DNA from: Ectothiorhodospiraceae bacterium
GTDB lineage: Bacteria > Pseudomonadota > Gammaproteobacteria > XJ16 > Halofilaceae
Assembly: GCA_007134775.1 (NCBI GenBank)
Contig: SLKC01000016.1
Coordinates: 1-43,413, forward strand
DNA length: 43,413 bases
Direction: 5' to 3'
Within the stretch, counting starts at the first letter, position 1. Each line of letters opens with the position of its first letter. A program made the position numbers and the translations under genes. Shown here piece by piece: positions 15,381-18,626 of the stretch. The notes under the pieces are model-generated. The model had not been told where the DNA came from and did not search any database. It worked only from the letters and a program-made list of their open reading frames with translations.

Positions 15381-17036
15381 ATGTCGGCCATCGTACTGAT
15401 CGTCCTGGTCGCAATTGTCATCATCGTGGCCATCGCGTTGCGTTTCTTCCATCGCGCGACCCAGGACATCTCGCTGGTCCGCTCCGGTCTCGGCGGTACG
15501 CGGGCGGTCATCGGTGGCGGGATGATCGTGATCCCGCTGCTGCACAACGTCACACGCGTGAACATGAACACGATGCGCCTCGAACTGGCGCGCACCCACG
15601 ACAAGGCCCTGATCACCGGCGACCGCATGCGCGCCGATGTCGTGGCCGAGTTCTATGTACGCGTACGGCCCCAGCGCCAGGCGGTTGAACTCGCCGCCCA
15701 GACACTGGGCTCACGCACGCTCGACCCCGAGGGCCTGAAGTCGCTGGTCGAGGGCAAGTTCGTTGACGCCCTGCGCTCGGTCGCCGCCGAACAGACGATG
15801 GAGGAGCTGCACGCCAACCGGCGCGGCTTCGCCCATGCCGTCGCCGACCAGCTCGAGGAGAGCCTGACGCGCAATGGCCTCGAGCTGGACAGCGTCTCGA
15901 TCACCGCCCTCGATCAGACCGACATCCAGTACTTCAACCCGTCGAACGCCTTCGACGCCGAAGGCCTCACGCGCCTGACCCAGCAGATCGAGGAGCGCAA
16001 GAAGAAGCGCAACGACATCGAGCAGGACACCTCGATTGCCGTTCAGCGCAAGACGTTGGAGACGGAGCGTACCCGGCTCGACCTGGAGAAGGAGAGCGAG
16101 TATGCGCGCCTGCAGCAGCAGTACGACATCGCCGACCGCCGGGCCCAGCAGCAGGCGGAGATCGCCGAGGCGGAAGCCCGCAGTCACGCCGCGTCCGAAC
16201 AGGCGCGCAGCGATGCCGAGCACGCGCTGAGTGCCCGCAACATCCACAACGAGCAGCAGCTCGGCGAGCAGCGCGCGCAGCGCGATGCCGCCATCCGCAT
16301 CGCGGAGCTGCGCGCGGCGATGGAACAGGCCCAGCAGGAACAACAGCAAAACCGCGTCCTCGCCGAACTCGAGGCGAGCCGAGGCGAGTTCGAGACCAGT
16401 CGCGAGCGCGTGGTGACCCTGCGCGAGACCGAGATCGCCGAGCGCGACAAGGCGATCGAGCTGATCAAGGCGGCACGCGAGGCCGAGCGCGATACCGAGC
16501 AGCGGCGGATCCTCGCCCGCGCCCAGCGCGATCTGGTCGAGATGGAGGGCGAGGAGCGCCGCCTGCGCGCGAGCGCGGAGGCCGAGGCCGAGCGCCTCGC
16601 CGCCGAGGGCGCGATGGCGCATCGACGCGTCGAGGCCGAGGCGACGCAGTTGCTCAACGAGGCGCGCAATGCGCTATCCGAGGAGCAGACGCGCGCCGAG
16701 GTTCGGCGCCAGCTCATCGAGGCCCTGCCCGAGATCGTGCGCGCGAGCGGGGAGCCGTTGAAGCACATCGACAGCCTGCGCATCGCCAAGGTCGACGGCC
16801 TCACGCGGCGCGTGCAGGAGCCGGCCGGCGATGCCGGCGGGGAGCGCGGCCACCGCGGGGACCTCGCCTCCGATCTGCTCGGGGGGCTGATGGAGTACCG
16901 CGCCCAGGCGCCCGTGATCGACACCATCCTGCGCGAACTCGGCCTGGCCCGCGATGGTGCCGGGCTCTCGCCGGAGGTGCTGCAGCCGGCGCGGCGCGAG
17001 TCCGACGAGCGCAGTGACGACGAGGGGACGAGCTGA
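15381..17036 (+). CDS. Flotillin-like SPFH protein (YqiK type)
   Basis: A 551-residue membrane-anchored scaffold. Residues about 3-22 are one hydrophobic anchor (AIVLIVLVAIVIIVAIALRF). Residues about 25-205 are an SPFH domain, including YFNPSNAFDAEGL. Residues about 205-440 are a long Glu/Ala/Arg/Gln coiled coil, and the last 100 residues contain a short flotillin-type C-terminal domain. A very strong GAGGAGG ribosome site precedes ATG 15381, 15 bases after the SRPBCC stop. Flotillins organise membrane microdomains and help multi-protein complexes assemble. The close spacing suggests co-expression with the importer, although flotillin genes also occur alone. Confidence 0.85.
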   Translation: MSAIVLIVLVAIVIIVAIALRFFHRATQDISLVRSGLGGTRAVIGGGMIVIPLLHNVTRVNMNTMRLELARTHDKALITGDRMRADVVAEFYVRVRPQRQAVELAAQTLGSRTLDPEGLKSLVEGKFVDALRSVAAEQTMEELHANRRGFAHAVADQLEESLTRNGLELDSVSITALDQTDIQYFNPSNAFDAEGLTRLTQQIEERKKKRNDIEQDTSIAVQRKTLETERTRLDLEKESEYARLQQQYDIADRRAQQQAEIAEAEARSHAASEQARSDAEHALSARNIHNEQQLGEQRAQRDAAIRIAELRAAMEQAQQEQQQNRVLAELEASRGEFETSRERVVTLRETEIAERDKAIELIKAAREAERDTEQRRILARAQRDLVEMEGEERRLRASAEAEAERLAAEGAMAHRRVEAEATQLLNEARNALSEEQTRAEVRRQLIEALPEIVRASGEPLKHIDSLRIAKVDGLTRRVQEPAGDAGGERGHRGDLASDLLGGLMEYRAQAPVIDTILRELGLARDGAGLSPEVLQPARRESDERSDDEGTS

Positions 17037-17164
17037 CCGGCGTGGCGGCGCCGCCCCCTGCAACGGACCGGAGAACGGGCCGGGGCGAGTCGCCGGCAGC
17101 AGCGGGATGAACGAAACTTCACCGCCCTTACAGGACACAGTCATCTTGTCCGGGGCATCATGCA

Positions 17165-17278
17165 AAGCGTCGGCAGCAGGGTTCCCCCGCCCGGCTGTCG
17201 ACGGTCTCAAAAGGTGTTTCTTCCCTGTGCGACCCTTGCTGCCGCTCCCTTCCCCCCGGGGGCGGCAGCTTCCTTTTG
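17165..17278 (+). ncRNA. Candidate small RNA, copy 1
   Basis: This copy ends in a hairpin CTGCCGC...GCGGCAG (17239-17268) with a C-rich loop, followed by CTTCCTTTTG, which is a terminator on the + strand only. It may also end the flotillin transcript. The transcript start is guessed from the repeat boundary. Confidence 0.4.
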
Positions 17279-17366
17279 TGCGTTGCCCCACAAAGCGCCC
17301 CGGCAATGATGGATAGACTGTCACGCGGTCGACAAGACGCTGTCATCGCGTCCCAGGCAACCTGAA

Positions 17367-17488
17367 AATCGTCGGCAGCGGGTTCCCCCCACACCGTTGT
17401 CGACGACCTCAATGGGTGTTTCTTCCCTGTGCAACCCTTTCTGCCGCCTCCGTCCCCCCCACCCCTCACGGGGGCGGCAGCTTCTTTT
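17367..17488 (+). ncRNA. Candidate small RNA, copy 2
   Basis: This copy ends in a hairpin CTGCCGCC...GGGGGCGGCAG (17441-17480) with a run of C in the loop, then CTTCTTTTCG. The conserved 18-mer (17415-17432) lies unpaired just before the hairpin. A TGTCAT/GAAAAT pair with a 17-base spacer just upstream is the best promoter candidate of the three copies. Confidence 0.4.
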
Positions 17489-17500
17489 CGCGCCCCGGCG

Positions 17501-17695
17501 TAGAATCCGCGAGCGGTGCGATGGACGGGCCTTCACCGGGTCGACAAGACGTTGTCATCGTTGCACGGGCAGGATGGGACGGGTCAGCGCCGGGCCTTCC
17601 CCTCTCCCGGCGCTGACCATTCCTCATTACCGAGGTGCATCTTCGCGCAAGCGGCTGTCGGCCCCTCCTCCCTGGCGGGGCCGGCAGTCTTCTTG
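17501..17695 (+). ncRNA. Candidate small RNA, copy 3, with TAGAAT -10
   Basis: A TAGAAT at 17501-17506 could start a transcript with two hairpins: a perfect 13-bp stem (17582-17594 with 17606-17618, loop CCTTCCCCTCT) and an 11-bp terminator-like stem with one wobble pair (17655-17665 with 17677-17687, loop TCCTCCCTGGC) followed by TCTTCTTGG. Both loops are C/U-rich and could pair with Shine-Dalgarno sequences. Confidence 0.4.
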
Positions 17696-17735
17696 GTTGC
17701 CACGGCCAACGACCGTGTTGTTCGGGCGCGCCCGC

Positions 17736-18626
17736 TCAGGCCGCAGGCGGCTGCCAGTGCGGGCCGAACTCATCGAGCGGGATCTTCAGGTAGCGCACGC
17801 CGTTGCCTTCGGGCTCGGGGAAGCGTCCCGCACGGATGTTGACCTGCACCGCGGGCAGGATCAGTACGGGCATGGGCAGCGTGGCATCGCGCGCATTGCG
17901 CTTCTCCGCGAACTCCTCCTCGCCAACGCCGCCACCGACATGAATGTTCTCGCGGCGCTGCGCGCCCACGGTGGTCTCATAGGCGAGGCCGCGCTGGTCC
18001 GTGCCGTAGTCGTGGAGCATGAACATGCGGTATTCATCGGGCAGCTCATCGAAGAGGCGGTGGATCGAACGGTAGAGCTGGCGCGCGTCCCCAGCCGGGA
18101 AGTCGCACCGCGCCGTGCCCGCATCGGGCATGAACAGGGTGTCCCCGACAAAGACCGCATCACCGATGACGTAGGTGATGTGGTCGCTGGTATGCCCCGG
18201 AGTATGGAAGACCCGGGCCGGCAGCTCTCCAACCTGGAAGGTGTCGCCGTCGGCGAACAAGCGGTCGAACTGGCTGCCGTCGGTCGGGAAATTCGGGTCG
18301 AGGTTGAACAGCCACTGCAACCGCTGCTGCACCACCGTGATGTGTTCACCGATCGCCGTCGGCGCATCGAAGTGCGAGCGCAGGAATGGGATCGCCATCA
18401 TGTGGTCGGCGTGGGCATGGGTCTCGAGCAGCCACTGCACTTCCAGCCCCTCCGCGTGCACGATGTCGACGAGCTGTTGCGCCGTCTCCGTGCCGCTGCG
18501 CCCCGAATAGGGGTCGAAGTCGAGGGCCGCGTCGATGATGGCCGCCCGGCGTGTCGCCGGGTCCCACACGACGTAGGAAAAGGTGTTGCTCGGCTCGTGG
18601 AGCACGCTTCGGACTTCGGTATGCAT
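17736..18626 (-). CDS. MBL-fold hydrolase, persulfide-dioxygenase-like (BigR operon type)
   Basis: A 296-residue metallo-beta-lactamase-fold protein. The metal motif THAHADHMM lies near residue 70, with further ligands in HTPGHTSDH and FVGDTLFMPD. This matches the Blh/persulfide dioxygenase group, which oxidises glutathione persulfide or related sulfane sulfur. The C-terminal part (ENIHVGGGVGEEEFAEKR, then ILPAVQVNIRAG) is typical of the BigR-controlled members. The start is ATG 18626 with GGAGGA upstream. It is the last of three genes transcribed from 19496, following a YeeE/YedE half after 13 bases. The sulfur role rests on family and context. Confidence 0.88.
   Translation of the reverse strand: MHTEVRSVLHEPSNTFSYVVWDPATRRAAIIDAALDFDPYSGRSGTETAQQLVDIVHAEGLEVQWLLETHAHADHMMAIPFLRSHFDAPTAIGEHITVVQQRLQWLFNLDPNFPTDGSQFDRLFADGDTFQVGELPARVFHTPGHTSDHITYVIGDAVFVGDTLFMPDAGTARCDFPAGDARQLYRSIHRLFDELPDEYRMFMLHDYGTDQRGLAYETTVGAQRRENIHVGGGVGEEEFAEKRNARDATLPMPVLILPAVQVNIRAGRFPEPEGNGVRYLKIPLDEFGPHWQPPAA

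Follow-up and report, generated by a model that had tools for sequence, protein, structure and literature searches.

The window (the whole 43,413 nt stretch of DNA analyzed) contains a tandem array of hairpin-rich repeats, and the question it raises is whether these repeats are small RNA (sRNA) genes and, if so, what such RNAs would do. The array is bounded on one side by a flotillin/SPFH gene (15381–17036, + strand) and on the other by a convergent gene (17736–18626, – strand) with a metallo-beta-lactamase profile; our reading of its sequence and context is that the latter is probably of the persulfide dioxygenase type. Sulfur-transport-like, ArsR-type regulator, and TauE genes are nearby. 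A sequence-only reading of the locus had proposed tandem anti-Shine-Dalgarno riboregulators associated with sulfide stress. Its observations are partly confirmed and its interpretation is partly supported, while the sulfide-stress link is unsupported.

Organization of the array

The proposed three copies of ~200 bp are borne out: three units lie on the + strand (17108–17696) with start-to-start spacings of 202 and 212. In every unit, an upstream element precedes a 5' hairpin, which a linker connects to a GC-rich terminator hairpin. In copy 1, the upstream promoter-like element (17108–17167, + strand), which aligns without gaps over 60 nt with those of copies 2 and 3, contains the core ACAGGACACAGTCATC at 17130–17145. 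It is followed by hairpin 1 (17168–17203; loop run TCCCCC), identified by folding, stem conservation, and accessibility, by the linker 18-mer GGTGTTTCTTCCCTGTGC (17213–17230), and by a terminator hairpin (17238–17269; loop run TCCCCCC) whose tail, TTCCTTTT, extends the feature to 17277. Copy 2 has the same layout on the same strand: an upstream element (17310–17369; core ACAAGACGCTGTCATC at 17332–17347), hairpin 1 (17370–17405; loop run TCCCCCC), the 18-mer (17415–17432), and a terminator hairpin with loop runs TCCCCCCC and CCCC and the tail TTCTTTTC (17440–17489). In copy 3, also on the + strand, an upstream element (17522–17581; core ACAAGACGTTGTCATC at 17544–17559) precedes a 13 bp hairpin 1 (17582–17618) and a terminator-like hairpin (17653–17689) that carries CCTCCTCCC on its loop side and then TTCTTGG, ending at 17696. 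The two strong hairpins of copy 3, with the C-rich loops CCTTCCCCTCT (hairpin 1) and TCCTCCCTGGC, are as originally described; a pair of strong hairpins is likewise present in both copy 1 and copy 2, a point overlooked in the earlier reading, as were the fixed spacing of the upstream core and the copy on another contig described below.

Tandem duplication is plain in the array, and copies 1 and 2 share 79% identity across 128 nt. The 18-mer that was said to be identical in all three copies is nevertheless restricted to copies 1 and 2. The longest string common to copies 1, 2, and 3 is 6 nt (GTCATC), and a 13-mer in the upstream region is common to copies 2 and 3.

GC-rich hairpins with T-rich tails had been described on one strand only, and such hairpin–tail pairs are indeed confined to the + strand, although all three tails are broken by other bases. 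The + strand folds far better than dinucleotide shuffles (z = –5.8, –5.8, and –6.5 for copies 1–3), with minimum energies of –53 to –72 kcal/mol for the three units; – strand folding is weaker (z = –3.7, –1.2, and –3.5). A CsrB-like RNA with GGA loops on the – strand was considered and rejected, as that strand lacks the terminators and folds more poorly. A peptide-coding role was also rejected, since inspection by eye found no conserved start codon shared by copies 1 and 2.

A fourth copy and conserved structure

A covariance model, R1, built from copies 1 and 2 alone recovers copy 3 (17582–17696; 36.7 bits, E = 1e-6 in one megabase), and copy 3 therefore belongs to the array. A genome search with R1 also identifies a fourth copy on another contig (G000:C198:27438–27551, equivalent to L105:1501–1614; 43.2 bits, E = 6.7e-8), and the next-best match in the genome scores 14.2 bits. 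Copy 4 is flanked by a Nudix-hydrolase-like gene and a LolD-like ABC gene, both named from their translated sequences without a profile search. A long His-Asp repeat (L105:3020–3114) lies within a permease-like gene 3' of copy 4.

Repeated intergenic hairpins could also represent a dispersed repeat of the REP type, which had been named as a finding that would overturn the sRNA proposal. The 3.06 Mb genome contains just four copies, three of them in one array, which rules out such an element and leaves this explanation with a negligible probability.

Divergence among the four paralogues is sufficient for compensatory changes to appear, which allows the structure to be checked from one genome. 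In an alignment of the four RNAs (A3), 97.8% of stem cells are paired, and two-sided changes are present in six of 23 pairs. The covariation score is 0.507, compared with 0.281 in shuffles (0/500 reach it), and sliding the pairing partners abolishes the signal. These values derive from four paralogues in one genome, aligned by fitting to R1 and hence biased towards its structure; RNAalifold on A3 returns the same two stems. Loop-1 C-runs have unpaired probabilities of 0.99–1.0 in all four RNAs, and the main terminator-loop C-runs have values of 0.8–1.0, whereas G-runs of at least three are mostly or fully paired. A linker C-run is present in copies 1, 2, and 4, with exposure of 0.94 in copy 2 (at the TCCC of its 18-mer), 0.74 in copy 4, and 0.34 in copy 1, where it is partly paired. 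The locus and its unlinked relative thus comprise several homologous structured copies with exposed C-runs.

The upstream region is conserved as well. First, the core pattern ACARGACNNNGTCATC starts exactly 38 nt ahead of hairpin 1 in all three array copies, and its only mismatch-free occurrences in the whole genome are at these three copies, from which the pattern itself was derived. Second, ungapped pairwise comparisons of the 60 upstream nt in the array give 35–40 identities (p < 1e-4), against ~19 in shuffles; the copy 1 element has 35–37 identities with the other two, which match each other at 40 of 60 positions. Third, when shifted by one base, the region upstream of copy 4 matches those of the array at 25–30 of 59 positions (p = 1e-4 to 1e-2). 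No sigma-70-type promoter was recognized ahead of the units. Together with the terminators, the upstream element suggests that each copy is transcribed separately.

These features bear on a simpler explanation, in which the array is a set of strong terminators plus spacer behind the flotillin gene that became tandemly duplicated and encodes no regulatory RNA. Its location downstream of that gene, the terminator-like hairpins, and the plain tandem duplication are all as this explanation predicts. However, hairpin 1 is not a terminator and is yet conserved with compensatory changes, the upstream element is maintained at a fixed distance, and the unlinked copy 4 has the whole architecture in a different gene context. 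We consider duplicated terminators improbable. As judged from the sequence evidence, namely compensatory changes in four paralogues, constant upstream spacing, terminators, and the lack of dispersed copies, the structured multicopy sRNA genes are real, as had been proposed for the tandem copies.

Comparison with known RNA families

A scan of Rfam at gathering score returned nothing for the array. Its RNAs belong to a known kind but form a new sequence family, outside every Rfam family at threshold, and they add to the C-rich-loop sRNAs a family absent from that database.

The closest organizational parallel is with LhrC1–5 of Listeria monocytogenes, for which five copies with indicated additive action are described, with C-rich (UCCC) sites in a hairpin loop, a single-stranded stretch, and the terminator loop (PMC4132741). 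The array shares both the several homologous copies and this layout of C-rich sites; LhrC, which is controlled by LisRK, differs from it in having a low-GC host and in giving no sequence match in the Rfam scans. The layout of several copies with several C-rich sites per copy is now seen in a GC-rich gammaproteobacterium.

The Xanthomonas sRNA sX13 (RF02232) is ~115 nt long and also has C-rich hairpin loops, including that of the terminator; through these loops it targets G-rich motifs close to start sites, independently of Hfq (PMC3771888). Its host is likewise among the GC-rich gammaproteobacteria, and C-rich motifs occupy the apical loops in the array RNAs as they do in sX13. Unlike the array, sX13 is a single copy with three stable stems that is always found 3' of polA, whereas the array lies beside the flotillin and metallo-beta-lactamase genes. 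The sX13 model (gathering score 50 bits) has no match at E ≤ 10 within 17050–17740.

Anti-Shine-Dalgarno C-rich motifs in loops are also described for NfeR1/alpha-r14 (RF02344) and for CcsR (RF02791), the latter comprising four neighboring sRNAs, CcsR1–4 (PMC10746234, PMC10253847). Copy 3, with CCTCCTCCC, resembles both. NfeR1 presents the same motif in three hairpins, but in the array CCUCCUCCC occurs only in the terminator hairpin of copy 3 and is not displayed unpaired in every hairpin; copy 3 scores 20 bits with the alpha-r14 model, against a threshold of 58.8. The CcsR RNAs differ in being processed from one precursor with ccaF1, and the CcsR1 match is 11.4 bits against a threshold of 65.3.

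Two further families show some likeness. 6C RNA (RF01066), which is actinobacterial, is likewise built from two hairpins whose loops contain runs of six C, and its match reaches 23.8 bits against a threshold of 47. The array linker GGGUGUUUCUUCCCU resembles GGGCGUUUCCUCCCU of mmgR in the suhB/mmgR family (RF00519). This candidate was rejected: the match scores 23.9 bits against a threshold of 41, no better than plain terminators in congeners (28.2 bits for one), and is therefore background.

Proposed function and candidate targets

By analogy with LhrC and sX13, the array most likely encodes multicopy C-rich-loop sRNAs that would occlude G-rich ribosome-binding sites (RBSs). The three tandem genes and the fourth on another contig would each produce a trans-acting sRNA of ~110–120 nt, using a promoter-like upstream element and an intrinsic terminator that belong to that copy. 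The resulting RNA may serve as a rigid scaffold displaying C-rich stretches in two loops, that of hairpin 1 and that of the terminator; copies 1, 2, and 4 have a further one in the linker, which in copy 1 is partly paired. These stretches would pair with G-rich RBSs to repress translation, and the copies may act together or under slightly different control. We infer the transcription, the pairing with G-rich mRNA sites, and the additive action, and consider the scheme as a whole probable, though well short of certain. Should the pairing model be true, the array would be another instance in which translation is repressed by this same means.

The anti-Shine-Dalgarno mode proposed earlier is plausible by anatomy, and we infer it from the precedent of LhrC, sX13, and NfeR1; the pairing test reflects only base composition. 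Targets were ranked over ~443 kb of the genome, in which a simple home-made caller predicted 344 genes and their starts; 329 of these genes were scored. The loop and linker segments bind the –25 to +4 region 0.5–3 kcal/mol better than control regions, but reversed segments favor the RBS regions equally, and the preference is therefore explained by base composition.

This lack of specificity in the pairing test is compatible with an alternative in which the RNAs, conserved in shape, mainly bind a protein that prefers single-stranded C, so that the repeated C-rich loops form a sponge. Repeated exposed C-runs in rigid hairpins would suit such a protein, and CsrB/RsmZ are known as multicopy sponges (discussed in PMC4132741). 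Nonetheless, the C-rich-loop RNAs that have been tested (sX13, LhrC, and NfeR1) act on mRNAs, and the GGA motifs of CsrA sponges would fall on the – strand, which has no terminators. A protein sponge is thus unlikely, though it deserves some weight.

The idea that the array specifically controls the neighboring persulfide-dioxygenase-like gene or its sulfur genes fares worse. Besides the adjacency on which the proposed sulfide-stress link relied, a 9-nt complement in copy 3, CCAUUCCUC, faces the RBS of that gene, which ranks 41st of 329 for the copy 3 linker. Across the twelve loop and linker segments, however, this RBS ranks between 32nd and 282nd of 329 and is no top target of any, and in the congeners the model detects no RNA of this kind next to their version of that gene. 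Dedicated control of the sulfur genes is very improbable, and the preferred reading remains that of trans-acting, translation-repressing sRNAs.

Distribution and polA-linked RNAs

The covariance search suggested earlier yields copy 4 in the same genome; no convincing homologue came from either of two congeners or from 273 further genomes of the class. Searches by BLAST, with a 16-mer, and with the models covered class samples of 56, 369, and 276 genomes, with stricter filters for the last, and none turned up a convincing relative; a plasmid collection contains no match to the array. Chance alone should give E ≤ 0.01 in about three of the 276 genomes. Matches at L135, L136, and L137 were taken as chance, being coding-like or without C-run loops, and L028 (25 bits over 45 nt) was rejected as an operon terminator. 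A 14.5-bit match in congener G002 (L101) was rejected because it looks like part of a gcgaag-type repeat. That repeat tract (L101:1501–1870) is intergenic, lies behind a carbamoyltransferase-like gene, and contains an inverted pair around GTCGGACTGGAAGTCCGAC.

One weak match, in G288 (32.3 bits; E = 1.7e-4 in its own genome, with ~0.05 expected over 276 genomes), is a C-rich hairpin RNA immediately 3' of polA that has sub-threshold Rfam matches to anti-hemB, ar7, and sX13. Similar C-rich hairpin RNAs are present 3' of polA in G014, G024, and G021; that of G014 is a true sX13 (103 bits) and served as a positive control, on which model R2 scores only 18 bits. The model touches a general architecture, and homology of the array to the polA-linked RNAs is not supported.

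Downstream of polA, no C-rich hairpin RNA was found in congeners G001 and G002 or in G017; in the two congeners (L140, L141), a pilin-like gene soon follows polA. In the host itself, a contig end falls inside polA. It is conceivable, although doubtful, that the genus is without the polA-linked C-rich sRNA (sX13 or a similar one) of other Gammaproteobacteria and that in this species its role is filled by four relocated or newly arisen C-rich sRNAs that have multiplied and share a promoter type. If true, this would be a turnover of translation-repressing sRNAs via amplification away from the ancestral site.

A question raised earlier is whether other bacteria, too, have such sRNAs encoded at polA (PMC3771888). 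The C-rich hairpin RNAs 3' of polA at L134:1501–1650 (– strand), L139, L143:2992–3096 (+ strand), and L144:1224–1337 (– strand) bear on this question. They come from four Gammaproteobacteria of different families; one is the sX13 noted above, and the rest have sub-threshold matches to anti-hemB, ar7, or sX13, or no match.
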